Assembly: GCA_021815825.1 (NCBI GenBank)
Contig: JAKAZO010000020.1
Span: forward strand, 1 to 40,356
Length of the DNA: 40,356 bases
Source of the DNA: Pseudomonadota bacterium
GTDB lineage: Bacteria > Pseudomonadota > Alphaproteobacteria > Acetobacterales > Acetobacteraceae
Direction: 5' to 3'
The notes beneath the pieces are model-generated. The model was not told where the DNA came from and made no database searches. It saw only the letters and a list, made by a program, of their open reading frames with translations. Both the position numbers and the translations under genes were made by a program. Positions 12,858-29,336 of the stretch are shown here, one piece after another (the first letter of the stretch is position 1; every line of letters starts with the position of its first letter).

Positions 12858-14360
12858 CTATGCGCTGCTGCGCGTGCGTCGCACCGCGTCGTGCCAGGCC
12901 GCGAGCCGGTGCGCCCGTTCGGGCTCGGCCATGACCGGCTCGAATCGTCGCTCCGCCTGCCACAGCGTGGCGAAATCATCGGGTTCGGGGCAGACGCCGG
13001 CGGCGCGCCCGGCGAGATAGGCGGCGCCGAGGACCGTCGTCTCGGGCTGGCGCGGCCGGTCCACCGGGCTGGCCAGGATGTCGGCCAGGAACTGCATCGC
13101 CCAGTCCGAGGCGCTCAGGCCGCCATCGGCGCGCAGCACCGTCGTCGGGCCTGGCCCGGCCTCCCGGTGCATCGCCGCGATCAGGTCGTGGGTCTGAAAG
13201 CCGACGCATTCGAGCGCGGCGCGGGCCAGCTCGGCCGGGCCGGTCGCGCGGGTCAGGCCGAACAGCGCCCCGCGCGCCTCGGCGTCCCAATACGGCGCGC
13301 CGAGACCGGTGAAGGCGGGCACGAGCACCACCGACTGCGCCGGATCGGCGGCGGCGGCGAGCGGTCCGGCCTCATCGCTGGCGCCGAGCAGGCCGAGCCC
13401 GTCGCGCAGCCACTGCACGGCCGCGCCGGCGACGAAGATCGAGCCTTCCAGCGCATACACCCGCGTGCCTCGGTGCTGCCAGGCGATGGTGGTGAGCAGG
13501 CGCTGGCGGGAGGCGACCGGCGTCGCGCCGGTGTTGAGCAGGACGAAGGCGCCGGTGCCGAAGGTCGCCTTGGCCATGCCGGCGCTGAAGCAACACTGCC
13601 CGATGGCGGCCGCCTGCTGGTCGCCGGCGATGCCGAGGATGGGAACGGGCGCGCCGAGGAGAGCGGCCTCCGTGGTGCCGAACGCCGCGCCGCAATCGCG
13701 CACCTCGGCGAGCAGCGCAGCGGGGATGCGGAACAGGTCGAGCAGCTCCGGGTCCCAGACGCCGCGGCGGATGTCGAACAGCAGCGTGCGGCTGGCATTG
13801 GTCGCGTCGGTGGCGTGGACGCGCCCGCCGGTCAGCCGCCAGAGCAGGAACGTGTCGACGGTGCCGGCGGCCAGCTCGCCCCGTTCGGCGCGGGCGCGCG
13901 CGCCGGGGATGGTGTCGAGCAGCCAGGCGAGCTTGGTGGCGGAGAAATACGGGTCGAGCAGCAGCCCGGTGCGGGCAGAGATGTCCGGTTCGCAGCCCTG
14001 GTTCCGGAGCGACCGGCAAAGCGGCTCGGTGCGCCGGTCCTGCCAGACGATGGCGCGATGGATGGGGCGCCCGCTGGCACGCTCCCAGATCATCACCGTC
14101 TCGCGCTGATTGGTGATGCCGAGCCCGGCGATCGCGCGCGCCTCGATGCCGGTGCGGTCGAGCACCTCGCGCAGCGCCGCGACCGTGCCCTGCCAGATCT
14201 CCTCCGGATCGTGCTCGACCCACCCGGGTGCAGGGAAATGCTGCGGCAGGTCGCGCCGGGCGATGGCCAGCGTGGTCAGCTCCGGCGGCCGCAGCAGCGC
14301 CGCCCGGGTCGAGGTCGTCCCCTGATCGAGGGCGAGGACCGGCGCGGCCGACCGACTCAC
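12858..14360 (-). CDS. glpK: Glycerol kinase
   Basis: Phosphorylates glycerol to sn-glycerol 3-phosphate in the cytoplasm. The 500-residue FGGY-family protein contains the N-terminal phosphate motif [12 protein letters not shown], the glycerol-site segments GITNQRET and VWQDRRT, the [14 protein letters not shown] helix and the C-terminal DGGLSASDW region, so it is full length and apparently intact. No glpF or glpD is in the window. The GTG start at 14360 overlaps the stop of the sensor-kinase gene as GTGA, making kinase and sensor translationally coupled. It ends ten bases from the convergent SDR gene, with no terminator-like hairpin. Confidence 0.96.
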
Positions 14361-16348
14361 GCCTCGCCCGGCTCCTTCGCCCCCGGCCGCTGCGTCAGCC
14401 TGCGGAGGACTCTCTGCAGCTCAGCCATGCGATAGGGCTTGGCGATGAACGGGGTGTCCCCGTGGGCGGCGTCGAGGGTGCGCAGCGTTTCGCGCGCATA
14501 GCCGGAGGCGAGCAGCACCGGCAGGTCCGGGCGGAGCGCGCGCGCCTGGTTCGCGAGTTCGACGCCATCGACACCGTGCGGCATGACGACATCGGTGAAC
14601 AGCGCGTCGATCGGCACGCCGCGCTGGAGAATGCTGAGCGCCTGGTGCGCGTCCTCGGCGGCGAAGACCTGATAGCCGCTGCCCTCCAGCGCCTCGGCCG
14701 CGATCTCGCGCACTTCGGGATCATCCTCGACGAGGAGGATCGCCGGGCGTTCCCGCGCCAGCCCGGCTTGGGCCGGCTTCGGCTCCACCGCGGCGCGCGG
14801 CAGCAGCAGCCGGACCACGGTGCCCTCATTCTCGCGGCTCTCGATCTCCAGCCCGCCAGCGGACTGGCGGGCGAAGCCGTGCACCTGGCTGAGTCCGAGG
14901 CCGGATCCGAGGCCTGGCGGCTTGGTCGAGAAGAACGGTTCGACGGCGCGCTGCCGCACCGCTTCGGACATGCCGGCGCCGGTATCGCGCACGGCCACGG
15001 CGACGTGCGGGCCGGCGGCCAGCTCGCCGAGAGCGGCCGCCTCCTCGGCCGAGAGCGTGACATTCCGCGTCTCGATGGTCAGCGTGCCGCCCTTCGTCAT
15101 CGCCTCGCGCGCATTGACCACGAGGTTGAGCACGGCGGACTGGAACTGGCCCTGATCCACCAGCACCGCATCCAGCTGCGGATCCAGATCCAGGCGCAAC
15201 GTCACGGCATCGCTCACGGCCCGCTCGAGCAGCGCCTCGAAGACCCGGATCAGGCCGTTGAGGTCCGTCAGCACCGGGCGTTGGCGCTGGCGCCCGGCAA
15301 AGGTCAGAAGCTGGGCGTTGAGCTTCTGCCCCCGCTCGATCGCGTGATGCACGGTCTCGGCCAGACGCCCGACGCGGGCGTCGCCCGAATAGCGGCCCAT
15401 GAGATCGACGCTGCCGGCGATGGTGGTCAGCAGATTGTTGAAATCATGCGCGACCCCGGCGGTCAGATGGCCGATCGCCTCCATCTTCTGCGCCTGCTGC
15501 GCACGCTCGCGGGCCTGTTCCATCGCATAGCGGTCGGTGATGTCGCGGGTGATCTTGACGAAGCCGAGCAGGTCGCCGTCGCTGCTGAACACCGGGTTGA
15601 TGACGATGCTGGCGCGAAACTGGCTGCCATCCTTGCGCACCCGCCAGCATTCGGCGCTGAAGTGCCCGACCGTCGCGGCCTCGGCCAGCGCGCGGTCGGC
15701 CTCGCCGGCGCGCCGGTCGGCCTCGGTGCAGAAGGTCGACACATGGCGCCCGACGACCTCCGCAGCGGTATACCCCTTGATGCGTTCGGCGCCAGCGTTC
15801 CAGCTCGTGATCATGCCGTGCAGGTCGAGCGTGTAGATGGCGTAGTCGACGACGCTGTCGATGAAGCGGCGGAACAGCTCCTGGCTCAGATGCAGCGCCT
15901 CCGCCGCCTGCATCCGCTCGCTGAGATCGCGCAGGACGACGGCATAGCCGGCGACCGAGCCGTCGGGGCCGATGACGCGGCCGACCGTGGTCTGTGCCGG
16001 GAAGCGGGTCGCGTCCTTGCGCAGGCGCCAGGCTTCCTCCTCGAACCGTCCGTCTTCCCGCGCCATTTGCAGCGCCAGCGCGGGGCGCTCGTTGGCCTGG
16101 TCCTTGGGTGGATACAGGATATCGATCGGCTGGCCGATCACCTCGTGGGCGACATAGCCGGTCAGCCGTTCGGCGCCGATGTTCCAATCCGTGATGGTGC
16201 CGGCGAGGTCCACTGAGAAGATCGCGTGATCGAGAACGCTGTCCAGCATGGCGTCGAGCCCGCCCGTCTGGTCGCCTTCCCCGGCCTTTATCCCGGGCTC
16301 TGTCCCGGGCTGCACACCAGGGGGTAGCCCCGGTCCGTGATGGCTCAT
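14357..16348 (-). CDS. Soluble hybrid sensor histidine kinase (PAS-PAS-HisKA-HATPase-REC)
   Basis: A 663-residue two-component sensor with no membrane segment, so it senses a cytoplasmic signal. Domains are PAS 1 (about 32-145), PAS 2 (about 160-275), HisKA with phospho-acceptor H301 in GVAHDFNN, HATPase with the N-box N408/N412, DTGAGM (455-460) and GSGLGLS (481-487), and a C-terminal receiver with acid pocket E541-D543, phospho-acceptor D586 and K637. No DNA-binding output domain is attached, so the receiver may regulate the kinase or act as a phosphate sink. The ATG at 16348 follows GAGGGGG. It is followed directly by glpK with a four-base overlap, suggesting that it senses or controls glycerol or energy status. 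That link is inference. Confidence 0.93.
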
Positions 16349-16565
16349 CGGTCGCCCCCTCACCGCTGGCCGTCAACAGGTTGCTCGGCTCCGAGGCCGC
16401 CGTGCGCGTGACAGGATAGGCTTCGGCCAGCCGTGAAAGCTTAGGCCATGCCGAGGCGTGAGCGCAATCGAGACCGCTACCCAAGCTCGCATATGAGTCC
16501 TGCTCTGCAATCAGTGTGGAGGTGATCCGGGTGCGATCCGCGGCGGCTGCACCAACGCGTCGCGT
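16349..16565 (-). other. Intergenic region between sensor kinase and fetB
   Basis: This 217-base gap presumably holds the promoter of the sensor kinase-glpK pair and the end of the exporter transcript. I see no convincing -35/-10 pair, no hairpin followed by a T run, and no credible small gene. Confidence 0.4.
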
Positions 16566-17363
16566 TCATCGCGGGCGCAGGCGGTCGAGCCGCAGCCGCT
16601 GGCGCGGGTCGGTGAGCAGCCGCACCGCCAGCAGCACCGCCGCCACCGACGCCAGCGCGCCCCCGCCGGCGAGCAGGAACATCAGCAGGATTTGATACTT
16701 GACCGCCTCCATCGGATCCATCCCGGCCAGAATCTGACCGGTCATGATGCCGGGCAGGGTCACAACGCCGGCGGCCGACATCTGGTTGATCATCGGCAGC
16801 ATGCCGCGGCGGATCGCCTGGCGCGCCAGGCGCGCCATCGCGGTGCCGAAGGTTGCGCCCAGGGCCAGCTGCGCCTCCACCGCGGCGCGTTCGCGCACGA
16901 CGCTGCCGAGCAGCGCGTCCAGCGCCAGGCTGGCCGCGTTGAGCACATTGCCGAGGATGATGCCGGCGAGGGGCACGGCATAGCGCGGATCGTACCATGG
17001 CACCGGGCGGATCGCCGTGGTCAGGGCGAACACCGCCGTCAGACAGGCTGCGCCGGCCACCGCCGAGCCGGCGACGGCGAGGTTGCCGAAGCGTCCGAGT
17101 TGCTGCTCCGGGCGCGCCGCCACCTCGCGCGCCGCGATCGCCGCCATCAGCATCACCACGGCCAGCGTCAGCGCCGGCGATGCGGCGTCGAACACCCGGT
17201 GCAGGATCACGCCGACGACGAGGAGCTGGATGACCATCCGCGCCGCCGCGACGCCGAGCTGGCGGTGCAGCCCGAGCCGGAGCGAAACGGACAGCGCCGC
17301 GTCGAGCACCAGCAGCAGCGCCGAGACGGCAAGATCGCGCGGCGTGAGCAGGATCGGGTTCAC
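16566..17363 (-). CDS. FetB-like ABC exporter permease
   Basis: A 265-residue inner-membrane protein of the FetB/YbbM family (UPF0014), whose E. coli member with FetA is linked to iron export and peroxide tolerance. About seven hydrophobic segments are visible, and the family motifs PLAGIILGNVLNAASLALD and LPGIMTGQILAGMDP are present. The GTG start at 17363 overlaps the ATPase gene's stop as GTGA, so the two subunits are translationally coupled. It is the last gene of the tetR-M20-ATPase-permease run. The substrate is inferred from the family only. Confidence 0.88.
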   Translation of the reverse strand: MNPILLTPRDLAVSALLLVLDAALSVSLRLGLHRQLGVAAARMVIQLLVVGVILHRVFDAASPALTLAVVMLMAAIAAREVAARPEQQLGRFGNLAVAGSAVAGAACLTAVFALTTAIRPVPWYDPRYAVPLAGIILGNVLNAASLALDALLGSVVRERAAVEAQLALGATFGTAMARLARQAIRRGMLPMINQMSAAGVVTLPGIMTGQILAGMDPMEAVKYQILLMFLLAGGGALASVAAVLLAVRLLTDPRQRLRLDRLRPR

Positions 17364-17953
17364 GGCGGCCCGAGCCGTCCGGCGTGCATCACGAGATGCC
17401 GCGCCCCGAGCCGGGACGGCTGGCCCGGGTCGTGGGTCGACATCATCAGCACCAGTCCGGCGCCGAGGCGTTCGGCGAGCAGCGCCTCCACCCGCGCCAC
17501 GCTGGCGGGATCGAGCGCGCTGGTCGGCTCGTCGAGCAGCAGCGCCGCCGGCGCGCGCACCAGGGCGCGGATCAGCGCCAGGCGCTGGCGCTCTCCCGAT
17601 GAGAGCCGCGCGACTGTGGCGGCGAACAGCTCCGCCGCCAGCCCCAGCCGCTCGCCCAGCGCGGCGGCGGCGGCCTGTTGGGCGGGCTGGAAATGCGCGC
17701 CGACGCTGGCGTCCCACCAGCCGGATTCGGCGGCGCAGTAGATGACGCGCGCGCGCCATTCCGGCGCGCGCATCCCAGCGCGCGGCCGGCCATCGAGCCA
17801 GGCCTCGCCTTCGTTGGGATCGAGATCGGCCACCATGCGCAGGCACAGGCTCTTGCCCGAGCCCGACGCACCGCTGATCGCCACCGCCTCGCCATGGCCG
17901 ATGACGAGATCGAACGGGCCGGCCAGCGCGCTGCGCAGCCCGACGAGGCGCAA
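17360..17953 (-). CDS. FetA-like ABC exporter ATP-binding subunit
   Basis: A 197-residue nucleotide-binding subunit for the adjacent FetB-like permease. Walker A is GASGSGKS, the signature is LSSGERQR, Walker B ends LLLDEPT and the H-loop is STHDPG. The Q-loop position reads YCAAESGWW, so the usual Gln is replaced by Ala, an unusual feature for an ABC ATPase. The start is uncertain. The TTG at 17953 gives a normal N-terminus five bases after the peptidase stop, but its ribosome-binding site is poorly spaced, and a CTG at 17965 is an alternative. It overlaps the permease gene by four bases. Confidence 0.85.
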   Translation of the reverse strand: MRLVGLRSALAGPFDLVIGHGEAVAISGASGSGKSLCLRMVADLDPNEGEAWLDGRPRAGMRAPEWRARVIYCAAESGWWDASVGAHFQPAQQAAAAALGERLGLAAELFAATVARLSSGERQRLALIRALVRAPAALLLDEPTSALDPASVARVEALLAERLGAGLVLMMSTHDPGQPSRLGARHLVMHAGRLGPP

Positions 17954-17957
17954 GCCT

Positions 17958-19352
17958 TCAGCCAGGGCCGAGATGCCCGAGCAGGCGGATATGCGCCCGC
18001 AGACCGTGGGTGAAGCAGGCGAGATCGAATTTCTCGTTCGGACTGTGCACCTGGTCGTCGTCGAGGCCGAAGCCCATCAGCAGCGTGTCCAGCCCGAGCA
18101 CGCGCTTGAAGCTCTCCACCACCGGGATCGAACCGCCGCTGCCGACGAAAACGGGCTCGCGTCCATATTCCTCGGCCAGCGCGGCCCGCGCCGCCGCGAT
18201 CAGGGGCGAGTGCGTCGGCACCTCGATGCCGGGGCTCTGGCCAAACACCTCGTAGGCCGCCTCGATGCCGGGCGGCAGGCGCTCGGCGACGAAGCGGCGG
18301 AAGGAAGCGAGCACCGCCGCCGGGTCCTGGTCCGGCACCAGGCGGAAGGAGAGCTTGGCCCGTGCCTCGCCGGGAATGACGGTCTTCGCGCCCGGGCCCG
18401 TATAGCCGCCCCAGAGCCCGTTGATGTCGGCGGTCGGACGGGCCCAGAGCCGCTCCAGCGCCGGCAGTCCGGCCTCGCCGGCCGGCTGCAGCAGCCCGAT
18501 CTGGCCGAGAAACTCACGCTCGTCGAAGCCGAGCGCGCCCCACGAGGCAGCCTGCTCGGGGGGGACCGGGCGGACCCGGTCGTAGAACCCGGCCAGCCGC
18601 ACGCGGCCCTGCGTGTCGTGCAGATCGCCGAGGATGCGCGTGAGCAGGTTCAGCGCGTTCAGCGCCGAGCCGCCATACAGGCCCGAATGCAGGTCGCGCG
18701 TCGCCGCGCGCAGCGTCAGTTCGACATAGACCAGACCACGCAGCCGCGTGGTGATCGCCGGCGTGTGGATGTCCCACATGTTGGTATCGGAGATCACCGC
18801 GGCGTCGGCGGCGAGTGCGGCGCGCTGGGTGAGGAGGAATGGTTCGAGATTGGGACTGCCGACTTCCTCCTCGCCCTCGACCAGCACAGTGACGCGCGCC
18901 GGCAGCCCGCCGGTGACCGCGTGCCAGGCGCGAAAGGCGGCGAGCCAGGTGCAGACCTGCCCTTTGTCATCGACGGCGCCGCGCGCCACCACGCGCTCCC
19001 CGTGCGGGCCCTGGGTACGTGTCGGCTCGAAGGGCGGCGTCGTCCAGAGCTCGAGCGGTTCCGGCGGCTGCACGTCGTAATGGCCGTAATAGAGCAGGTG
19101 CGGGGCGTTGCCGCCGGGGCCGGGATGGTGGGCGAGGACGCAGGGCTGCCCCGGTGTCGCGTGCAGCGCGGCCTCGAAGCCGAGCTCGGCGAGTTCGGCG
19201 CGCACCCATTCGGCCGCGGCGGCGCAGTCGGCCGCGTGCGCGGGCTGGGCGCTGACGCTCGGGATGCGCAACAGCGCGAACCACCGCTCCAGCGCCGCCT
19301 GATGGGTGCTGTCGGCGTGACGCAGCACACCCTCGATCCGGCCATTCGCCAT
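17958..19352 (-). CDS. M20 family metallopeptidase (dipeptidase-like)
   Basis: A 464-residue zinc peptidase of the M20/M28-fold group, most like broad dipeptidases that cleave short peptides in the cytoplasm. The first zinc motif is YGHYDVQPP with the conserved His and Asp, then GAVDDKGQ (bridging Asp) and the catalytic Glu-Glu pair in VEGEEEVGS. A dimerisation lid domain occupies about residues 190-330, and a late His lies in DDDQVHSPNE. No signal peptide is present. The ATG at 19352 follows GGAGG by seven bases. It lies between a TetR gene and the FetAB-like exporter genes on the same strand, five bases before the ATPase start. Confidence 0.93.
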   Translation of the reverse strand: MANGRIEGVLRHADSTHQAALERWFALLRIPSVSAQPAHAADCAAAAEWVRAELAELGFEAALHATPGQPCVLAHHPGPGGNAPHLLYYGHYDVQPPEPLELWTTPPFEPTRTQGPHGERVVARGAVDDKGQVCTWLAAFRAWHAVTGGLPARVTVLVEGEEEVGSPNLEPFLLTQRAALAADAAVISDTNMWDIHTPAITTRLRGLVYVELTLRAATRDLHSGLYGGSALNALNLLTRILGDLHDTQGRVRLAGFYDRVRPVPPEQAASWGALGFDEREFLGQIGLLQPAGEAGLPALERLWARPTADINGLWGGYTGPGAKTVIPGEARAKLSFRLVPDQDPAAVLASFRRFVAERLPPGIEAAYEVFGQSPGIEVPTHSPLIAAARAALAEEYGREPVFVGSGGSIPVVESFKRVLGLDTLLMGFGLDDDQVHSPNEKFDLACFTHGLRAHIRLLGHLGPG

Positions 19353-19397
19353 GCTGGAGCCTCCGCCTTTGCCGCCCGATCCCTGCGGCGCCCGGGG

Positions 19398-20033
19398 TCA
19401 CTCACTGCCGATGTGGGCACCATAGGTATGAAGGAACATTTCGACGGCGCCGTCCACCACGCGATCGAGCATCGCCTCCGTCGGGTTGGGCAGCAGATTG
19501 AGCTTGCAGCGGAACCAGACACGGGTCTGGCACAAGGCGAAGAACTGCTCGGCGGCGAACTCGGCGTCCGGCACGCGCAACAGGCCGCGCGCGCTCTGGG
19601 CGGTGAGCCAGCGCGACATGAAGCCGATCGCCTGCGCCGGCCCGGCCTCGTAGAATTTCCGCGCCAGCTCGGGGAATTTCTCCGCCTCGGAGACGACGAC
19701 CCGGTAGATCGTGCGCCCTGTGGGGGAGAGCATCATGCGGATGAAGCGCCGGCCGATGATGCCGAGCGTGGCGGCGGGATCGGCGCCGGCATCCGCGCCC
19801 TCGAACAGGCGGGTCAGATTCTGCGCGATCTCGGCCTCGACGAAGGCGACGAACAGGTGCGCCTTGCTCTCGAAATGATTATAGAGCGTGCCCTTGGAGA
19901 CGCTCGCCTCGGCGGCGATGCGCGACATCGACGCGCCCTCATAGCCCTCGGCGGCGAATACGATGCCGGCGCCGCGCAGGATCTGTCCGCGCTTCTCCGG
20001 GGAAAGGGCCTCGATGGCGACCATCCGTTGCAC
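19398..20033 (-). CDS. TetR/AcrR family transcriptional repressor
   Basis: A TetR-type regulator of about 211 residues. The N-terminal helix-turn-helix is clear (SRIAAEASVSKGTLYNHFESKA region), and the C-terminal ligand-binding domain is of the AefR-like type. The ligand is unknown. The start is ambiguous: GTG at 20033 lies four bases after GGAG, while ATG at 20024 also fits the family N-terminus. The gene diverges from a NodT-type outer-membrane efflux gene, with a 7-bp-arm palindrome between them, the classic arrangement of a repressor controlling itself and an efflux component. The M20 peptidase gene follows after 45 bases on the same strand. Confidence 0.9.
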   Translation of the reverse strand: MQRMVAIEALSPEKRGQILRGAGIVFAAEGYEGASMSRIAAEASVSKGTLYNHFESKAHLFVAFVEAEIAQNLTRLFEGADAGADPAATLGIIGRRFIRMMLSPTGRTIYRVVVSEAEKFPELARKFYEAGPAQAIGFMSRWLTAQSARGLLRVPDAEFAAEQFFALCQTRVWFRCKLNLLPNPTEAMLDRVVDGAVEMFLHTYGAHIGSE

Positions 20034-20054
20034 GTATCTCCAAGGACGAGCGCC

Positions 20055-20082
20055 TTGACGAATGCCGCAAGCGGGGTAGTTT
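20055..20082 (+). promoter_or_regulatory. Candidate promoter of the outer-membrane factor gene
   Basis: TTGACG (20055-20060), a 16-base spacer and TAGTTT (20077-20082) resemble a sigma-70 promoter with a strong -35 and a weak -10. The predicted start falls at about 20089, just ahead of the palindrome at 20090-20108, so bound repressor would block early transcription. A minus-strand TTGACA (20087-20082) could serve the tetR side. Confidence 0.4.
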
Positions 20083-20089
20083 GTCAAAG

Positions 20090-20108
20090 TGACCGAACCG
20101 ATCGGTCA
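20090..20108 (+). promoter_or_regulatory. Palindromic TetR-type operator
   Basis: TGACCGA, five bases, TCGGTCA: a perfect inverted repeat with 7-bp arms, which also contains the inner palindrome ACCGATCGGT. It lies in the 200-base gap between the divergent tetR gene and the outer-membrane factor gene. Its size and GACCG/CGGTC composition suit a TetR dimer. Which protein binds it is inference from position. Confidence 0.6.
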
Positions 20109-20233
20109 GGAGCGGATCGTGGCTGGCGCGGCGTCCGGTGTCAGACGGGCCAACGCTCCGGCTGCCGGCGGAGCATGGGCGGCCAGCTGAGCATGCGTGG
20201 CTTGCGGCGGTCGCAGGGTTGGAGAAGGCAGGA

Positions 20234-21856
20234 ATGAAACCTTGGGCGCGAAACGGCCGGTTGCGGCGCTGGACGTTCGTGCGAGGGGCGTTGGTGCCAG
20301 CAGCCTTGGTGTCGCTGCTGGGAGGTTGTACGGTTGGCCCGGACTTCGCGCAGCCCAAGCCCTGGTGGTCTCCTGCCTCCTGGGGCCAGCACGAGGTGAA
20401 GCCGGTCGTCGCATCCAGCAAGCCGGTGGTGGCGGCGGTGGACCCGGCCTGGTGGAACCAGTTCCACGATGCCGAGATGACGGCGCTCGAGGGCCGCCTG
20501 GTCGAGAGTAATCTCGACCTGCGCATCGCCATGATCCGGCTCGGCGAGTCCCGCGCCGCCTACGGCCAGGCCCGGGCGGCGATGTTCCCGACGCTGAATG
20601 CCAACGGCTCCTACACGCGCGAACTGATCAGCCCGAACGGCATCGTCTCCGCCTTCGGCGCCGGCGCGCCCGGCGGCAGCTTCACCGCCCAGAGCGGCAT
20701 CGCCAGCGGCCTCGTCGGCACCCAGGCGGGCACCGTGATCCCGAACACCACTGGCGTCATCCCCCCGTTCAACCTCTACCAGTACGGCTTCGACGCGACT
20801 TGGGAGATCGACCTCTGGGGCCGGGTGCGCCGCGGCGTGGAGGCGGCGCAGGCGAGTGTCGATGCGGCGAACGATCAGCTGCGCGACACGCTCGTTGCCA
20901 TCGAGGCCGAGTTGGCGCGCGACTATATCCAGCTCCGCGGCGTTCAGCGGACGCGCCAGATCATCGAGGAAAATCTGGCGAGCGCGCGCGAAAGCCTGAA
21001 ACTGACGCAGGAGCGCGCCACCACCGGCCTGACCACCGATCTCGACGTTGCCAACGCCCAGGCGCAGGCCGACGGCATCGCCGCCCAGCTGCCGCAGCTC
21101 GAGCAGCAGGAGGCGCAGCTCATCAACGCCGTCAGCCAGCTTCTCGGCCAGCCGCCGCAGGCGCTCGCCGGCGATCTCCGCCCGGCCAAGCCGATCCCGC
21201 CCGTGCCGCCCCAGATCCCGGTCGGCCTGCCCTCCGATCTCGCCCGCCGCCGCCCGGACATCCGCGCCGCCGAGGCGCAGCTCCATGCCGCCACGGCGCA
21301 GATCGGCGTCGCCGTGGCGAGCTTCTTCCCGAGCATTTCGCTCTCCGGCAGCTTTGGCTTCCAGTCGGTCACCACCAACAACATCTTCAATTGGAACTCG
21401 CAGCAATATGGCTTTGGCCCGACCGTCGTGCTGCCGATCTTCCAGGGTGGGCAGCTGGTTTCCACGCTGGAGCTGCGCAAGCAGCAGGAGAAGGAAGCGG
21501 CGGTGGCCTATCAGCGCACCGTGCTCGCCGCGCTGCACGACGTCGACAATGCGCTGACCGCCTACGACGCCGAACAGAAGCGAAACCAGCGCCTCGCCAC
21601 CGAGACCGCGGCGGCGCGGCGAGCGCTTGAGCTCGCCCGTGCGCGCTATGTGCAGGGCATCTCGACATTCCTCGATGTGCTCGAGGCGCAGCGTGTGGTG
21701 CTCGCTGCGGAGCAGCAGCTCGCCGACAGCACCACAACGGTCTCGACCAACCTCGTCGCCCTCTACAAATCCTTGGGCGGCGGCTGGGAGTCCGCCTACC
21801 CTCTGCCGGATACGACGGCAAAGGCCGCGCCAGTGACGCCGGTCAAGGGCGGCTGA
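20234..21856 (+). CDS. NodT-type outer-membrane efflux lipoprotein
   Basis: A 540-residue outer-membrane channel of the TolC/OprM-NodT family. The N-terminus is an Arg-rich signal with the lipobox LLGGC (acylated C32), followed by CTVGPDF, a hallmark of the family. Two repeated outer-membrane-efflux domains follow, with long helices such as the NAQAQADGIAAQLPQLEQQE region and the conserved RRPDIRAAEAQL. Such channels work with a periplasmic adaptor and an RND, MFS or ABC pump, none of which adjoins it here. The ATG at 20234 is chosen because it opens the signal sequence and is preceded by a purine-rich ribosome-binding site. It is divergent from tetR. Confidence 0.92.
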   Translation: MKPWARNGRLRRWTFVRGALVPAALVSLLGGCTVGPDFAQPKPWWSPASWGQHEVKPVVASSKPVVAAVDPAWWNQFHDAEMTALEGRLVESNLDLRIAMIRLGESRAAYGQARAAMFPTLNANGSYTRELISPNGIVSAFGAGAPGGSFTAQSGIASGLVGTQAGTVIPNTTGVIPPFNLYQYGFDATWEIDLWGRVRRGVEAAQASVDAANDQLRDTLVAIEAELARDYIQLRGVQRTRQIIEENLASARESLKLTQERATTGLTTDLDVANAQAQADGIAAQLPQLEQQEAQLINAVSQLLGQPPQALAGDLRPAKPIPPVPPQIPVGLPSDLARRRPDIRAAEAQLHAATAQIGVAVASFFPSISLSGSFGFQSVTTNNIFNWNSQQYGFGPTVVLPIFQGGQLVSTLELRKQQEKEAAVAYQRTVLAALHDVDNALTAYDAEQKRNQRLATETAAARRALELARARYVQGISTFLDVLEAQRVVLAAEQQLADSTTTVSTNLVALYKSLGGGWESAYPLPDTTAKAAPVTPVKGG

Positions 21857-21954: not shown

Positions 21955-23637
21955 ATGAGCATGGGTGGGGGAGAGCAGCCCGAGCGTGGACCCACCGCGG
22001 ACGCGGCGATGGCGCCACTGCCGCCGCCGAGCACGGTACCGGCCCTGCTCGATGCGGCGGTTGCCCGCTTTCCCGGCCAGCCGGCGATCGATTTCATGGG
22101 TCGGCGCTGGACCTATGCGGCACTCGGTGCACTGGTCGATCGGGCCGCGAGTGGGCTGCAGCGGATCGGTGTCGTCAAGGGCACGCGCGTCGGCCTCTGC
22201 CTCCCCAACACGCCCTATTCGGTGATACTCTACTTTGCCGCGCTGAAGGCCGGCGCGATCGTGGTCAACTACAATCCGCTCTACGTCGAGCGCGAGTTGC
22301 TGACGCAGATCCGCGACTCGGGCACCACCATCATGGTGGTGCCAGACCTCCCCGCGATCCACGGCAAGGTGGGGCGCGTTGCCGCCGAAGCCGGGCTGGC
22401 CCGCATCATCGTCTGCCCGATCGCGGCGATGCTGCCGACCCTGCATTGTCTCGCCTATCACCTGATCCGCTGGCGCGAGCGGACGCACGCGGATCCCTTG
22501 AACCTGTCGTTCACACGACTCATCGGCAGCAAAACCCCTCTCACGCCGGTGGCGATCGACCCCGAACGGGATGTTGCGGTGCTGCAATATACCGGCGGCA
22601 CGACGGGCATTCCCAAGGGGGCGATGCTCACCCACGCCAATCTCACCGCGAACAGCGCGCAGGTCATCGCGCAGGCCGCTACCCTGCGGCCGGGAGACGA
22701 GCGCGTGCTCGGCGTGCTGCCGCTGTTCCACGTATTCGCCATGACCTGCGTGATGAATTGCGGCATCGCGCTCGGCGCCGAGATCGTCCTCCTGCCCCGC
22801 TTCGAAATCCGCCAGCTGATGCGCACGATCGCGCGGACCCGCCCGAGCGTCTTTCCGGCGGTGCCGACGATCTATGGCGCGATCAACACCGCCGCCGAGC
22901 ACATGCGCATCGATCTCACCTCGATCCGCTACTGTACTTCCGGTGGCGCGCCGCTCCCCACCGAGGTGGCGCAACGCTTCGAACAGCTCACCGGCGGTAG
23001 CCTCACCGAGGGCTACGGGCTGAGCGAAACATCCCCCGTGGTCTGCTTCACCCCGCCCGGACGTGAACGCAAGCCGGGCTCGGTTGGTCCCGCGGTGCCC
23101 GGCACGGTGATCGAGATCCGCGATCCGTCCGATCCGGCCCGCAAGCTTGGCGTCGGCGAAAAGGGCGAGATCTGCATCCGCGGGCCGCAGGTCATGCTGG
23201 GCTACTGGAATCGTGCCGAGGCGACGCGCGAGGCCTTCTTCGAGGGCGCGCTGCGCACCGGCGACATCGGCTATCTCGATGCCGACAACTATCTGTTCCT
23301 CGTCGATCGCATCAAGGACGTGATCCTGTGCGGCGGCTACAACGTCTATCCGCGCGTGCTGGAGGAGGCGCTGTATCAGCATGAAGCCGTCGCCGAGGTG
23401 GTGGTGATCGGCATCCCCGATCCGTATCGCGGCCAGTCGCCGAAGGCCTTCGTGACCCTGCGGCCCGGGCGCAGCGTGAACCCGGAAGCACTGCGCGACT
23501 TCCTCAAGGGCTATGTCTCGCCGATCGAGTTGCCCAAGGAGATCGAGATTCGTACAAGCCTGCCGAAGACGATGATCGGCAAGCTGTCGAAGAAGGCGCT
23601 CGAGGACGAGCTGGCGCAGAAGGGTGACCAGGCATGA
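21955..23637 (+). CDS. fadD: Long-chain fatty-acid-CoA ligase
   Basis: Activates fatty acids to acyl-CoA with ATP, the entry step of beta-oxidation. The 560-residue ANL-superfamily enzyme has the P-loop YTGGTTGIPKGAM, the EGYGLSETSP adenine-site motif, the TGDIGYLD motif with the ribose-binding Asp, and a C-terminal domain with the catalytic Lys in the PKTMIGKLSKKAL region. The ATG at 21955 is followed by an in-frame ATG two codons on. It is the first gene of an operon with merR, thiolase, fadN-type and acyl-CoA dehydrogenase genes, and its stop overlaps the MerR start as ATGA. Confidence 0.93.
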   Translation: MSMGGGEQPERGPTADAAMAPLPPPSTVPALLDAAVARFPGQPAIDFMGRRWTYAALGALVDRAASGLQRIGVVKGTRVGLCLPNTPYSVILYFAALKAGAIVVNYNPLYVERELLTQIRDSGTTIMVVPDLPAIHGKVGRVAAEAGLARIIVCPIAAMLPTLHCLAYHLIRWRERTHADPLNLSFTRLIGSKTPLTPVAIDPERDVAVLQYTGGTTGIPKGAMLTHANLTANSAQVIAQAATLRPGDERVLGVLPLFHVFAMTCVMNCGIALGAEIVLLPRFEIRQLMRTIARTRPSVFPAVPTIYGAINTAAEHMRIDLTSIRYCTSGGAPLPTEVAQRFEQLTGGSLTEGYGLSETSPVVCFTPPGRERKPGSVGPAVPGTVIEIRDPSDPARKLGVGEKGEICIRGPQVMLGYWNRAEATREAFFEGALRTGDIGYLDADNYLFLVDRIKDVILCGGYNVYPRVLEEALYQHEAVAEVVVIGIPDPYRGQSPKAFVTLRPGRSVNPEALRDFLKGYVSPIELPKEIEIRTSLPKTMIGKLSKKALEDELAQKGDQA

Positions 23638-24050
23638 AGATGCAGCCGGAGGCCGGCGGGGAAGAGCTGTTCACCGTCACCGAGTTGGCAGCGGATCTCG
23701 GCATCAGCGCGCGCACGATCCGCTTCTACGAAGCCAAGCACCTGCTCGTACCCCGCCGCGTCGGGACGACGCGTGCCTACACCCGTCACGACCGAGCCCG
23801 CATGATCCTTATCCTGCGCGGCAAGCGGTTGGGGTTCTCGCTCCGCGAAGTCAAGGAGTATCTGGATCTCTACGATATCGACCGGAGCAAGGGCGAACAG
23901 CTGCGCATGCTGAGCGCGGCGGTGCAGAGCCGGATCGCGAGGCTCGAGGAGCAGCGCATCGCCCTCGAGGAAACCCTGGCCGAGCTGCGCGAGATCGATC
24001 GCCAGGCGGCCGATGCCATGGCCGCCGTGCAGCGCGCGCCGGTCACCTGA
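23634..24050 (+). CDS. MerR family regulator (LiuR-like)
   Basis: A 138-residue DNA-binding regulator. The N-terminal winged helix-turn-helix reads FTVTELAADLGISARTIRFYE, followed by RAYTRHDRARM and the stretch LRGKRLGFSLREVKEYLDLYD, characteristic of LiuR-type regulators, which in proteobacteria control branched-chain amino-acid and fatty-acid catabolism. The C-terminal part is a long coiled-coil dimerisation helix (about 95-130). No cysteine is present, so it does not sense metals. It overlaps the ligase gene by four bases, so it is co-expressed with the pathway it probably controls, perhaps with an acyl-CoA as effector (inference). Confidence 0.9.
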   Translation: MKMQPEAGGEELFTVTELAADLGISARTIRFYEAKHLLVPRRVGTTRAYTRHDRARMILILRGKRLGFSLREVKEYLDLYDIDRSKGEQLRMLSAAVQSRIARLEEQRIALEETLAELREIDRQAADAMAAVQRAPVT

Positions 24051-24072
24051 TCGACAGAACGGAGCAGCAACC

Positions 24073-25209
24073 ATGCCGCAGGCGGTCATCGCGGGCTATG
24101 CCCGATCTCCCTTCACCCTGGCCAAGCGGGGCGCGCTGGCGCGCGTCCGGCCCGACGACATCGCCGCGCAAGTCGTGCGCGCGCTCGTCGCCCGCAGCGG
24201 CGTCGCCGCGGCGGACATCGAGGACCTCATCGTCGGCTGCGCGTTCCCCGAGGGCGAGCAGGGATTGAACGTCGCCCGCCTGATCGGGCTGCTCGCCGAT
24301 CTGCCGATCTCGGTCGCGGGGATGACGGTGAACCGCTTCTGCGGCTCGTCGATGCACGCGGTGCACATCGCCGCGGGGCAGATCGCGCTCGGCGCCGGCG
24401 AGGTCTTCGTCTGCGCCGGAATCGAGAGCATGTCGCGCGTGCCGATGATGGGCTTCAACCCGATGCCGAATCCGGCGCTGGTAGCGAAGAATGCCGCCGC
24501 CTATATCGGCATGGGCGATACGGCCGAAAACGTCGCGCGGCAATGGCGTATTCCCCGCGCCGAACAGGAGGAATTCGCCGTGCGCAGCCACACGCGAGCC
24601 GCGGCGGCGCAGGCGGGCGGACGGTTCGCGGGCGAACTCGTCGCCATCACCGGCAAGGCTGGCAGCACCGAGGCCGATGGCTGCATCCGCCCCGAAACCA
24701 GCGCAGCCGCCCTGGCCGAACTCAAGCCTGCCTTCAGCAAGGACGGCAGCGTCACCGCTGGCACGTCGTCGCCGCTGACCGACGGCGCCGCCGCGGTGCT
24801 CGTGTGCAGTGAGGCGTACGCCGAGCGCACGGGATTGTCACCGCTGGCGCGCATCCGCTCCGTTGCCGTCGCGGGCTGCGCACCCGAGATCATGGGCATC
24901 GGGCCGGTTGCGGCGACGCGCAAGGCACTCGCGCGCGCCGGCATCGGCATCGGCGAAATCGGTGTCGTCGAGCTCAACGAGGCCTTCGCCAGCCAGGCGC
25001 TGGCCTGCGTGCGCGAACTCGGCATCGAGGAAGCGACGCTTAATCTCGATGGCGGCGCGATCGCGCTGGGTCATCCGCTCGGCGCCACCGGGGCGCGCAT
25101 CGTCGGCAAGGCGGCCAGCCTGCTCGTTCGCGAGGGCGCGCGCTACGCGCTGGCGACACAATGTATCGGCGGCGGCCAGGGCATCGCCACCATCCTGGAG
25201 CGCGTGTGA
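24073..25209 (+). CDS. fadA: Acetyl-CoA C-acyltransferase (3-ketoacyl-CoA thiolase)
   Basis: Performs the last step of beta-oxidation, cleaving 3-ketoacyl-CoA with CoA. The 378-residue enzyme is slightly short but complete. The nucleophile is C90 (NRFCGSSM), the base His lies in GHPLGATG, and the second Cys is in QCIGGGQG. The ATG at 24073 lies eight bases after GGAG. The gene follows the MerR regulator by 22 bases, and its TGA overlaps the next start as TGATG, so thiolase and the dehydrogenase/hydratase are translationally coupled, as expected for partners in one complex. Confidence 0.95.
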   Translation: MPQAVIAGYARSPFTLAKRGALARVRPDDIAAQVVRALVARSGVAAADIEDLIVGCAFPEGEQGLNVARLIGLLADLPISVAGMTVNRFCGSSMHAVHIAAGQIALGAGEVFVCAGIESMSRVPMMGFNPMPNPALVAKNAAAYIGMGDTAENVARQWRIPRAEQEEFAVRSHTRAAAAQAGGRFAGELVAITGKAGSTEADGCIRPETSAAALAELKPAFSKDGSVTAGTSSPLTDGAAAVLVCSEAYAERTGLSPLARIRSVAVAGCAPEIMGIGPVAATRKALARAGIGIGEIGVVELNEAFASQALACVRELGIEEATLNLDGGAIALGHPLGATGARIVGKAASLLVREGARYALATQCIGGGQGIATILERV

Positions 25210-27533
25210 TGCAGCAGATCCGCAAAGTCGCCGTGATCGGCGCCGGCGTCATGGGAGCAGGCATCGCCGCGCAGGTCGCCAATGCTGGCGTGCCGGTACT
25301 GCTGCTCGACATCGTCGCGGCGGGCAGCAACGATCGCAACGCGATCGCCGCCGGCGCGGTGGCGAGGATGGCCAAGACCGAGCCGGCGCCGCTGATGAGC
25401 GCGGCCGCGGCCAAGCTGATCACGCCCGGAAACACCGAGGACGATCTTGGAAAGTTAGCCGATTGTGACTGGATCGTCGAAGCGGTTGTCGAGCGGCTGG
25501 ACGTCAAGCAGACGCTCTACCGCCGCATCGATGCGGTGCGGCGGCCGGGAAGTGCGGTGTCGTCCAACACCTCGACGATTCCGCTGGCGACGCTGGTGGA
25601 GGGAATGCCGGAGGGGTTCCGGCGCGATTTCCTCATCACCCATTTCTTCAATCCGCCGCGCTATATGCGCCTGCTGGAGATCGTTGCCGGCGTCGACAGC
25701 GATCCGGCGACGGTGGCCGCCGTCAGCCGCTTCGGCGATGTCGTGCTCGGTAAGAGCCTGGTGAATTGCAAGGACAGCCCTGGATTCATCGCCAATCGGC
25801 TGGGTGTCTACTGGATGCAGCTCGGCGTCGTCGAAGCGGTCGATGCCGGGTTGACGGTCGAGGAAGCCGATGCGGTGATGGGCCGCCCGTTCGGCATTCC
25901 GCGCACGGCGATTTTCGGCCTCATCGATCTCGTCGGCCTCGATCTGATGCCGCATGTCAACGCCAGCCTGGCGCGCGCTCTGCCGCCGAGCGATCCGTTC
26001 CACGCCGCCAATCGCGAGCTGCCGCTGCTCGGGCGCATGATCGCTGAAGGCTACACGGGCCGCAAAGGCAAGGGCGGCTTCTATCGGCTGGAGCGCGGCG
26101 AGGGTGGGCGGCGCAAGCTGGCGATGGACCTCGCCACAGGCGAGTACCGGCCCGAGCGCGCCGCCAATCTCCCCGAACTCGCGGCCGCGGGCAGCGATCT
26201 GCGGAAGATTCTGGGCGCGCCGGGCAGGGTCGGACGCTATGCCTGGCGGGTGATCGGGCAGACGCTCGCCTACGCCGCGGCACTGGTGCCCGAGGCCACC
26301 GACGACATCGTCGGCATCGATGAGGCCATGCGGCTCGGCTACAACTGGAAATGGGGGCCGTTCGAACTGATCGACCGCCTTGGCGCGGACTGGCTGATCG
26401 ACCGCCTCGGCGCCGACGGCATCGCCATTCCGAAGCTGCTGGCGCAGGCGAAGGGACGCAGTTTCTATCGTAGCGAGCGTGGCCGGTTGCAGTTCCTCGG
26501 CACCGATGGCGCCTATCACGACATCGTCCGCCCGGATGGCGTGTTGCTGCTGGAGGACGTCAAGCGGCAGAGCAAGCCGCTCCTGAAGAATGCATCGGCC
26601 GCGCTGTGGGACATCGGCGATGGCGTGGTGTGCTTCGAGTTCACCAGCAAGATGAACGCGCTCGATGCCGATATCATCGCGCTGCTGAGCAAGACGCTGG
26701 CGCTGGTGCGCGAGGACTACAAGGCGCTGGTGATCTATAACGAAGGCGCAAATTTCTCCGTCGGCGCCAATCTCGGGATCGCGCTCTTCGCCGCCAACAT
26801 CGCCGCCTGGAGTGAGGTGGAGAAGGCCATCTCCGCCGGCCAGCAGACCTACCTGGCTCTGAAATACGCGCCATTTCCCGTGGTCAGCGCGCCCGCCGGC
26901 ATGGCGCTCGGTGGCGGCTGCGAGATTCTGCTGCACAGTACTGCGGTGCAGGCCCATGCCGAGACCTATGCCGGGCTGGTCGAGTGCGGCGTGGGGCTGC
27001 TGCCGGGCTGGGGCGGCTGCAAGGAGATGCTGTTGCGCTGGCAGACGGAGGGAAAGCTGCCGCGCGGGCCGATGCCGGCTGCGGCGCGCGCCTTCGAGTT
27101 GATATCCACTGCGCAGGTCTCGAAATCGGCAGCGGAGGCGCGGGAAATGCTGATCCTGCGCCCGAGCGACGGCATCACGATGAACCGGGCGCGGCTGCTC
27201 GCGGACGCGAAGGCGCGCGCGCTGGCGCTGCTCGATTCCGGGACGCGGCCATTGCCGCCGGAGATCATCGCCGCGGGACCCGCCGGCAAGGCCGCGCTGG
27301 TGATGGCGGCGGAGGGGTTCCACCGGCTCGGCAAGGCGACCGACCACGATCTCGTGGTCGCCGCTGCGTTGGCCGAAGTGCTCTCGGGCGGGGATGCGGA
27401 CCCGACGATGCCGGTCGGCGAGCAGGCGATCCTCGATCTCGAGCGGCGCAATTTCATCCGTCTGCTGCAGAGCGAAAAGACGCTGGCGCGCATCGAACAC
27501 ACCCTGGAAACCGGCAAGCCGCTGCGCAACTGA
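25209..27533 (+). CDS. fadN: 3-hydroxyacyl-CoA dehydrogenase / enoyl-CoA hydratase fusion (FadN-type)
   Basis: A bifunctional 774-residue beta-oxidation enzyme. The dehydrogenase comes first: the NAD site is GAGVMGAG and the catalytic dyad is H145 (HFFNPP) with E157, then KDSPGFIANRLG, followed by a second C-terminal dehydrogenase domain (about 240-450). The crotonase domain follows at about 480-660, with both catalytic Glu residues in ALGGGCE and LVECGVGLLPG and an oxyanion segment NFSVGANL. This order is the reverse of E. coli FadB and matches Bacillus subtilis FadN, whose operon also contains fadA and fadE. The ATG at 25209 overlaps the thiolase stop. The symbol rests on architecture and context. 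Confidence 0.92.
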   Translation: MQQIRKVAVIGAGVMGAGIAAQVANAGVPVLLLDIVAAGSNDRNAIAAGAVARMAKTEPAPLMSAAAAKLITPGNTEDDLGKLADCDWIVEAVVERLDVKQTLYRRIDAVRRPGSAVSSNTSTIPLATLVEGMPEGFRRDFLITHFFNPPRYMRLLEIVAGVDSDPATVAAVSRFGDVVLGKSLVNCKDSPGFIANRLGVYWMQLGVVEAVDAGLTVEEADAVMGRPFGIPRTAIFGLIDLVGLDLMPHVNASLARALPPSDPFHAANRELPLLGRMIAEGYTGRKGKGGFYRLERGEGGRRKLAMDLATGEYRPERAANLPELAAAGSDLRKILGAPGRVGRYAWRVIGQTLAYAAALVPEATDDIVGIDEAMRLGYNWKWGPFELIDRLGADWLIDRLGADGIAIPKLLAQAKGRSFYRSERGRLQFLGTDGAYHDIVRPDGVLLLEDVKRQSKPLLKNASAALWDIGDGVVCFEFTSKMNALDADIIALLSKTLALVREDYKALVIYNEGANFSVGANLGIALFAANIAAWSEVEKAISAGQQTYLALKYAPFPVVSAPAGMALGGGCEILLHSTAVQAHAETYAGLVECGVGLLPGWGGCKEMLLRWQTEGKLPRGPMPAAARAFELISTAQVSKSAAEAREMLILRPSDGITMNRARLLADAKARALALLDSGTRPLPPEIIAAGPAGKAALVMAAEGFHRLGKATDHDLVVAAALAEVLSGGDADPTMPVGEQAILDLERRNFIRLLQSEKTLARIEHTLETGKPLRN

Positions 27534-27545
27534 AGGAGCACGCCC

Positions 27546-29336
27546 ATGCAAACCTACAAGGCCCCGCTGCGCGACATGCGTTTCGTGCTGCACGAGCTGC
27601 ATGACAGCCGCCGCATCATGGCGCTGCCCGGCGGTGACGAGCTTTCCCCCGAGCTGATGGACAGCGTGCTGGAGGAAGCGGCGAAAATCTCCGAGCAAGT
27701 GCTGCTGCCGCTGAATGCGAGCGGCGATGAGGAGGGCTGCCACTACGAGAACGGCGTCGTGCGCACGCCGAAAGGCTTCAAGGCAGCCTATGACCTGTTC
27801 CGGGAGGGCGGCTGGACATCGCTCGCGTGCGATCCCGCCTATGGCGGACAGGGGCTGCCGGAAATCCTCAACAAGCTCGTCGAGGAGATGAGCTGCGCGA
27901 CCAATCTCGCCTTCGGGCTCTATCCCGGCCTCACCCACGGCGCCTATCTGGCGCTGCGCGATCATGGCTCGGAGGAGCTCAAGGCGCGCTTCCTGCCGAA
28001 GATGGTGGATGGCACCTGGTCGGGGACGATGTGTCTCACCGAGGCCCATTGCGGCACGGATCTCGGCCAGTTGCGCACCCGCGCGGTGCCACAGCCGGAT
28101 GGCAGCTACCGGCTGAGTGGGGCGAAAATCTTCATTTCCGCCGGCGAGCACGACCTCACCGAGAACATCGTGCATCTCGTCCTCGCCCGGCTGCCGGATG
28201 CGCCCGCCGGGGTGAAGGGCATCAGCCTGTTCCTGGTGCCGAAATTCCTCCCCACGGCCGAGGGCGCGCCGGGCGCGCGCAACGGCGTGCTGTGCACGGC
28301 GATCGAGCACAAGATGGGCATCCGCGCCTCGGCTACCTGCCAGCTCACCTTCGAGGACGCCACCGGCTGGCTCGTTGGGGAACCCAACAAGGGGCTCGCC
28401 GCGATGTTCACCATGATGAACAGCGAGCGGCTCTCGGTCGGCATCCAGGGGCTCGGCATTGCCGAGGCGGCCTACCAGAGCGCGGTCGCCTACGCGAAGG
28501 AGCGGCTCCAGGGCCGCTCGCTCGCCGGGGCCAAGCGGCCGGACCTGGCCGCCGATCCGATCATCGTCCATCCGGATATCCGCCGCACCCTTCTGACCAT
28601 CCGCGCCTACGCCGAAGGCTGCCGCGCGCTCGCCGGCTGGGTGGCGCAGGCGCTGGACCTCATGGAGCGGGAGAACGACCCCGATGCGCGCGCCGCGGCG
28701 GATGATTTCACCGCCCTGATGACACCGGTGGTGAAGGCGCTGTTCACGGATCTCGGCTTCGAGACGGCCAGCCTGGGCATGCAGGTCTATGGCGGTCATG
28801 GCTACATCCGCGACCACGGCGTCGAACAATTCGTGCGCGATGCGCGCATCGCCATGATCTACGAGGGCACGAACGGGATCCAGGCGCTGGATCTGGTCGG
28901 GCGCAAGCTGCCGGCCCATGCGGGGCGCTCGCTGCGCCGGTTCTTCCATCCCGTCGCCGCCTTCATCGAGGCGAAGAAAGACGACGCCGCGATCGGCCCG
29001 CTGGTCCAGGCGCTGGCCAAGGGGTTCGGCGCGCTGCAGCTCGCGACCGCCCACATCGCCGAGTGCGGCCAGCGTGACCCGGAGGAGGCGGGTGCGGCGG
29101 CGACCGAATATCTGCGCCTGTTCGGTCTGGTCGCACTCGGCTTCATGTGGGCCCGCAGCGCCGAGGTGGCCGCGGCGAAGCTGCCGGCCGCCAACGGCGA
29201 CGCCGGATTCTATCGCACCAAGCTCGCCACCGCGCGTTTCTACATGGAGCGCATTCTGCCCGGCGCGTTCGCGCTCCTGCCCGCGATCAAGTCCGGCAAG
29301 GCGGCGATGATGGCGCTCGGCGAGGCTGATTTCTGA
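27546..29336 (+). CDS. Acyl-CoA dehydrogenase with C-terminal extension
   Basis: An FAD-dependent acyl-CoA dehydrogenase of 596 residues that makes the first double bond in beta-oxidation. Features are the flavin-side motif CLTEAHCGTDLG, the substrate-side segment LSGAKIFISAGEHD, the catalytic base E440 (IYEGTNGIQ) and an extra C-terminal domain of about 110 residues, found in the long acyl-CoA dehydrogenase/DmdC-like branch. That branch includes medium- and long-chain enzymes as well as 3-methylmercaptopropionyl-CoA dehydrogenase. The operon context favours ordinary fatty acids. A strong GAAGGAG precedes the ATG at 27546, 12 bases after the fusion gene. It ends nine bases from convergent nusB. 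Confidence 0.93.
   Translation: MQTYKAPLRDMRFVLHELHDSRRIMALPGGDELSPELMDSVLEEAAKISEQVLLPLNASGDEEGCHYENGVVRTPKGFKAAYDLFREGGWTSLACDPAYGGQGLPEILNKLVEEMSCATNLAFGLYPGLTHGAYLALRDHGSEELKARFLPKMVDGTWSGTMCLTEAHCGTDLGQLRTRAVPQPDGSYRLSGAKIFISAGEHDLTENIVHLVLARLPDAPAGVKGISLFLVPKFLPTAEGAPGARNGVLCTAIEHKMGIRASATCQLTFEDATGWLVGEPNKGLAAMFTMMNSERLSVGIQGLGIAEAAYQSAVAYAKERLQGRSLAGAKRPDLAADPIIVHPDIRRTLLTIRAYAEGCRALAGWVAQALDLMERENDPDARAAADDFTALMTPVVKALFTDLGFETASLGMQVYGGHGYIRDHGVEQFVRDARIAMIYEGTNGIQALDLVGRKLPAHAGRSLRRFFHPVAAFIEAKKDDAAIGPLVQALAKGFGALQLATAHIAECGQRDPEEAGAAATEYLRLFGLVALGFMWARSAEVAAAKLPAANGDAGFYRTKLATARFYMERILPGAFALLPAIKSGKAAMMALGEADF

Follow-up and report, generated by a model that had tools for sequence, protein, structure and literature searches.

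Which pump does the lone outer-membrane channel of this locus serve? The channel is encoded in the window, by which we mean the whole 40,356-nucleotide stretch analysed here, on contig C8 of a 3.2 Mb, 150-contig assembly of an Acetobacteraceae bacterium (genome G000). A first-pass annotation had placed a minus-strand run of a TetR-type regulator gene (tetR), an M20 peptidase gene and the ATP-binding cassette (ABC) genes fetA and fetB opposite a NodT-type channel, across one palindrome, and all five genes, as searched against Pfam and NCBIfam, and the palindrome proved to be in place. It had also held that the channel lacks an adaptor or pump beside it. This is true locally, as none stands beside the gene within the window, but an adaptor-pump pair lies behind the same site on another contig. 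The outer-membrane factor (OMF) is probably not partnerless but the outer part of a split pump, because the same site precedes a distant emrA-emrB pair in G000 and in relatives, and because emrA-emrB join tetR-OMF in 20 of 80 related loci. We put at roughly 0.8 the probability that the locus supplies a split tripartite drug-efflux pump of the major facilitator superfamily (MFS), of the EmrA-EmrB-NodT type, with its regulator and its outer-membrane channel. The features of the locus are the following.

20234-21856, plus strand: NodT/OprN-type outer-membrane channel (OMF) with a lipoprotein-type signal; TIGR01845 'outer_NodT'
20090-20108, no strand: 19-bp palindrome, putative operator TGACCGAACCGATCGGTCA, between tetR and the OMF gene
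19398-20024, minus strand: tetR, AefR-like repressor family (TetR_N plus TetR_C_7, PF14246)
17958-19352, minus strand: M20 metallo-dipeptidase of the PRK09104 subfamily (NF006579, 644.5 bits against a cut-off of 327), 45 bp after tetR
17360-17953, minus strand: FetA-like ABC ATPase, 4 bp after the M20 gene; FetA NF007601 is its second-best NCBIfam match
16566-17363, minus strand: FetB-like UPF0014 permease (PF03649, E 2e-73), with a GTG start overlapping the fetA stop

The palindrome and its second copy

The tetR product carries TetR_N (54.9 bits) and TetR_C_7 (128.8 bits), both exceeding the Pfam gathering cut-offs, and this pair of domains places it in the AefR-like group of TetR regulators. 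AefR (3cdl) was among its solved relatives in a solved-structure search, a kind of search that here yielded family names only. As read from the sequence, the more likely start is the ATG at 20024, giving 208 amino acids. The channel belongs to the outer-membrane factors, scoring 379.9 bits against TIGR01845 (cut-off 210.05), and its best solved relative is OprN. For this gene the ATG at 20234 is a more likely start than the GTG at 20138 and gives a protein of 540 amino acids, whose lipoprotein-type signal ends LLGGC.

Between the two genes lies a palindrome with the layout TGACCGA-N5-TCGGTCA, 65 bp upstream of the tetR ATG and 125 bp upstream of the OMF ATG. Its conservation was assessed in a survey in which an alignment of 11 tetR proteins retrieved 347 relatives, the best 80 loci being kept; at least six of these come from the same organisms as genomes of a 60-genome set described below. 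The palindrome is kept upstream of tetR in 76 of the 80 loci (74 at one mismatch or fewer, 2 at two mismatches) and looks like a conserved operator. When the whole of G000 was scanned at up to two mismatches, only two places were found (four strand hits), namely C8:20090, in the window, and C3:26094. As the reversed pattern gives a single hit in this genome, against four strand hits of the true pattern, the occurrence of the palindrome is beyond chance.

The second site (C3:26094-26112) lies directly before emrA of an emrA-emrB pair. With EmrB and EmrA of genome G021 as queries against nine genomes, the adjacent matches in G000 fell at C3:26223-28677, with no channel beside them in the stretch read (L124). 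The two genes are the following.

G000 contig C3, frame 26118-27281: emrA, most likely starting at the ATG at 26145, 32 bp after the site
G000 contig C3, 27295-28875: emrB

EmrB is an EmrB-type DHA2 MFS transporter, scoring 427.9 bits against TIGR00711 (cut-off 230.2), and EmrA has three HlyD/lipoyl-type domains over the Pfam cut-offs. Another EmrAB-like pair lies on C14 of G000, and an EmrB paralogue stands by itself on C77; in the stretches read around these no site was found at up to three mismatches. A dedicated pump with a matching site, an outcome that the first-pass annotation had named as refuting its own reading, is found elsewhere in the genome at sequence level, although it is an MFS pump of the EmrAB type and not one of the resistance-nodulation-division (RND) type.

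The same scan was run on eight genomes in all, with the reversed pattern giving 0-5 hits per genome. In G001, G002, G003 and G032 the best places are those between tetR and the OMF gene and before emrA, plus one or two scattered two-mismatch places each. G011 has both sites on one contig, where emrA-emrB face tetR and the OMF gene, plus three other two-mismatch places, and in G021 a single site lies between emrA and tetR, in addition to one two-mismatch place. G008 has the site between tetR and the channel gene, plus six two-mismatch places, and none before its emrA.

Sharing of the site by the two loci suggests that the three pump parts may be regulated in common. We infer that a dimer of the AefR-like TetR protein would bind the 19-bp operator in the tetR-OMF intergenic region, repressing both genes, and would also bind the second copy before emrA-emrB on contig 3. 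An inducing compound would release the repressor, so that the three parts are made together; channel, EmrA and EmrB would then assemble, and EmrB would drive the compound through EmrA and the channel out of the cell. The genes M20-fetA-fetB would form a separate block behind tetR in this genus and would not be pump parts, while M20, and perhaps fetAB, may ride on the tetR transcript.

Arrangement in relatives

Two samples of relatives bear on this reading. Among the 60 genomes, G000 included, that were searched for tetR, 37 had a match at 1e-10, and 20 neighbourhoods were read. The channel gene stands with tetR and with genes for an EmrA-like adaptor and an EmrB-like transporter in G021, G025, G011 and G034, tetR lying between emrA-emrB and the channel gene in the last two. 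The lone tetR and channel layout of the window recurs in G001, G002, G003, G008 and G032, and an adaptor without a channel is found beside tetR in G012, G004, G005, G006 and G020. Neither was labelled directly beside tetR in G010, G024, G027, G029, G031 and G057, where gene calls are rough and tetR itself was missed in G031. Transporters were named by family search in G011 and G021, by genome search in G012 and G025, and by eye in the other neighbourhoods. It should be noted that the crude gene caller missed genes (fetA, some emrA, tetR of L071), and that the counts given here rest on tblastn or genome searches.

In the 80 loci, the channel is alone with tetR in 49, the full set of channel, emrB and emrA is present in the 20 joined loci, with the two emr genes placed between tetR and the OMF gene, emrA with or without emrB is seen without a channel in 9 (eight of which end less than 4 kb from tetR on that side), and neither is present in 2. 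The site was then looked for at distant emrA genes in 45 of the 80 genomes, comprising 35 of the 49 with a lone channel, 8 of the 20 with joined genes and two others. In 24 of the 35 lone-channel genomes the site, at one mismatch or fewer, lies 8-227 bp upstream of the best emrA match. Ten of the remaining 11 were read around emrA, and the site was found at two mismatches in G060, G061, G064, G065, G066 and G068, and at three in G062, so that by this looser count a site precedes the distant emrA in 31 of 35. In each of the eight joined genomes the site stands in front of the emrA linked to tetR, and in the two others it precedes an emrA (positions compared by eye in both cases). Over the 45 genomes, at one mismatch or fewer, the pattern gave 145 hits by strand, palindromes counting twice, against four for the reversed control. 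The putative regulon is seen in Acetobacter, Gluconacetobacter, Komagataeibacter and Acidicaldus as well as in Acetobacteraceae bins. One further bin, titled Terriglobia (L162), is the best match after two genus mates (tetR 72%, channel 67%) and has the same layout; it may be mislabelled or may reflect a transfer.

The proteins themselves agree with the arrangement. The window OMF shares 44-57% identity with the channels of the 20 joined loci and 29%, over about 506 residues, with each of its two nearest relatives among the other G000 channels (C67, C117), and it can be aligned only patchily to those on C116 and C63. In a channel tree of 31 rows (the window OMF, four further channels of G000, and those of 15 of the 49 lone and 11 of the 20 joined loci), the window OMF groups with three lone channels (96/99), and the other G000 channels lie, on very long branches, on one side of a weakly supported branch (61/89). 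The tree agrees with a common origin of lone and joined channels, though it does not prove it. For the pump, identity between the tetR-linked EmrB of G011 and the distant EmrB is 72% for G032 and 58% for G000.

Several observations weigh against a split EmrAB pump and should be considered together. Concerning the site, 4 of the 80 tetR loci have no palindrome at up to two mismatches, the distant tetR relatives G004, G005 and G006 bear a different palindrome, and the emrA site of G000 carries one mismatch. A simple scan found no sigma-70-like promoter at the tetR and OMF site or at the emrA site (the sole 'terminator' listed by the promoter scan before emrA is the palindrome itself). Three genomes of the same family, G010, G024 and G027 (L062, L064, L065), have tetR with an operator-like site, TGACCGAACNGGTCGATCA, and no channel or pump labelled directly beside it. 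Concerning the distant pair, no site was found before emrA in G071 (the same organism as G008), G073 and G079, and G069 has no emrA match at 1e-45; the three-mismatch site of G062 is weak, and in G088 the counted emrA match is interrupted by two in-frame stops. Concerning the proteins, the best match of the G000 EmrA, TIGR00998 (the EmrA/EmrK family), reaches 245.6 bits against a cut-off of 390.8, and the EmrB paralogue on C77, which has no adaptor, is a close one, 55% identical to EmrB of G011. Finally, the site precedes RND pumps in some relatives, so the channel need not serve EmrAB alone.

RND pumps and the M20-FetAB arm

This last point concerns a different partnership, in which the channel would be a shared exit, serving EmrAB plus channel-less RND pumps of the same genome (e.g. 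MFP_C133-RND_C46, MFP_C74-RND_C74). OEP matches lie on 5 contigs of G000 and ACR_tran matches on 8, with C46, C133 and C74 not among the OEP contigs. Relatives point the same way. Of the places found in the scan of the 45 genomes, 14 lie away from both tetR and emrA, and 13 of these were read (all except G087:C145). In G064, G065, G066 and G068 (L240:2332, L241:6420, L242:6553, L243:2956) the site, at zero or one mismatch, stands before an adaptor-RND operon like that on C67 of G000, which suggests that in these four an RND pump is also under the control of the repressor. G099 and G100 (L248:5477, L249:5587), which have tetR and emrAB joined, carry an additional site in front of an adaptor-RND pair resembling MFP_C133-RND_C46; no channel was found in the stretch examined, which stops about 1 kb beyond the RND gene. 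At the seven other places of the 13 read, no pump, channel or tetR of the query panel was found. A common extra one-mismatch site, TGACCGGACGGATCGGTCA, is seen at L244:4434, L245:4564 and L246:4569 (Novacetimonas maltaceti, Gluconacetobacter entanii and Novacetimonas hansenii).

Within G000 the evidence runs the other way. All RND matches are on contigs other than C8, and no site was found at up to four mismatches before the RND adaptors looked at (L074, L082, L083). An RND partner for the channel was rejected in this genome on that ground, and is kept as a rival since relatives show the site before RND pumps. G000 also has a TolC-like channel (C63). We regard the shared exit as possible, if doubtful. 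A wider proposal, which we offer tentatively, is that Acetobacteraceae may have a hub regulon, in which an AefR-like repressor, encoded divergently from a channel, and one 19-bp site would govern a shared exit channel and whichever pumps carry the site (mostly EmrAB, in some genomes RND as well), rewired by moving operators and not genes; in the window's clade the tetR transcript would also carry an M20 dipeptidase, which may either break down the inducer or produce it.

The other arm of the locus returns us to the window, where the first-pass annotation found it tempting to read tetR, M20, FetAB and the channel as a single unit for peptide cleavage and the export of a peptide- or amino-acid-metal complex. 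In favour of this, tetR, M20, fetA and fetB form a same-strand run in which tetR and M20 are separated by 45 bp, M20 and fetA by 4 bp, and fetA and fetB overlap. In 20 of the 80 loci M20 follows tetR within 800 bp, and in 16 of these the match ends are no more than 107 bp apart, so that M20 may well be co-transcribed with tetR. This tetR-M20 pair (17958-20024 in the window) recurs beyond the genus.

The remaining parts do not travel with the channel. Only 2 of the 80 loci, both from the window's genus, have fetB less than 9 kb from tetR. FetB is found in 13 of the 60 genomes and M20, at 1e-60, in 37 (G000 being counted in both). The M20-fetA-fetB tandem occurs in three genomes of the window's genus and in G012, G014, G016 and G022, of four other genera, and in the stretches read from these four no tetR orthologue was seen beside it. 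The G014 contig starts inside M20, yet a match to tetR at 1e-10 is absent from the whole of G014, and in G012 tetR is on a different contig. In the stretches read, fetA-fetB stand without M20 beside them in G004, G006 and G032. The gene glpK lies beside M20-fetAB in G012 and G022, and M20 with glpK but without fetAB is found in G020. With M20-fetAB seen where no tetR stands beside it, and with fetAB and M20-glpK also seen on their own, the M20-fetAB arm reads as a mostly separate neighbourhood block. The recurring partners of the channel are emrA and emrB. The single export unit was rejected since M20 and fetAB move independently of the channel, and we consider it very improbable. What stands of the proposed common control is the site shared by tetR and the channel, together with the tetR-M20 adjacency; neither FetAB as a channel partner nor export of a peptide- or amino-acid-metal complex is supported.

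More modestly, M20 and fetAB may be co-transcribed with tetR in this genus, so that the inducer of the pump would also raise a dipeptidase and a FetAB-like exporter that are not pump parts. The gaps, and the lack of a terminator-like site in 19360-20260, favour this; against it, the M20-fetAB order is kept where no tetR is seen beside it, and the block presumably has its own promoter there. We give this an even chance, and it is compatible with the split EmrAB pump. The best solved relative of M20 is a cytosolic non-specific dipeptidase. The ABC genes appear to be FetAB-like only, as they score far under the equivalog cut-offs (136.5 against 410 bits for TIGR00245, FetB, and 88.9 against 292 bits for NF007601, FetA). 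Two further genes belong to the M20-fetAB neighbourhood.

14357-16363, minus strand: PAS histidine kinase (kinase domains by family search)
12858-14360, minus strand: apparent glycerol kinase gene (named from its translation only)

On the other side, 3' of the OMF gene and on the same strand, 21955-29336 holds an acyl-CoA ligase, a MerR regulator and apparent beta-oxidation genes. The AMP-binding acyl-CoA ligase and MerR were named by family search and the beta-oxidation genes by translation only; an acyl-CoA ligase is near tetR in just 3 of the 80 loci.

Comparison with known systems

EmrAB pumps under TetR control are already known, as are EmrAB-like pumps that rely on a channel encoded at a distance. 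What is apparently new is the family-wide arrangement with one operator at both loci. The literature covered, which left most subscription papers outside the search and included PMC8744987 and PMC11274321, yielded no description of such a regulon. The apparent oddity of a channel without a pump thus becomes a testable regulon with a defined site, and where gene neighbourhood fails to match an orphan channel to its pump, a shared operator would offer a simple means of doing so. Related systems handle flavonoids, uncouplers, antibiotics or fatty acids, according to PMC6780985 and PMC11915855, on which the comparisons below also draw, and the pump could bear on the tolerance of acetic acid bacteria to toxic compounds.

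FetAB of E. coli shares with the window genes a UPF0014 permease and an ABC ATPase, whereas the window genes fall well short of equivalog scores. For the pump, the nearest parallels are MFS systems. In S. meliloti, emrAB is under the TetR-like EmrR and is induced by flavonoids (PMC6780985), which resembles our proposal in that a TetR-family repressor governs an EmrA-EmrB MFS pump; in G000, however, emrAB is on another contig than tetR, and it is the channel gene that is paired with the repressor gene. VceR-VceCAB of V. cholerae likewise combines a TetR-type repressor with an EmrAB-like pump that has its own channel (PMC6780985), but vceCAB is one operon, whereas the parts in G000 are split over two loci. 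FarAB of N. gonorrhoeae is an EmrAB-like pump that borrows MtrE, a channel belonging to a different system (PMC6780985); FarR and MtrR have opposite effects there on the two systems, while G000 has the same site at both loci. With regard to the regulator, AefR represses mexEF-oprN in Pseudomonas (PMC11915855), so that an AefR-family repressor of an efflux pump is known, and both 3cdl and OprN are among the solved relatives of the window proteins. MexEF-OprN is, however, an RND system named and deleted as one unit (PMC11915855), unlike the split MFS pump that we propose for G000.

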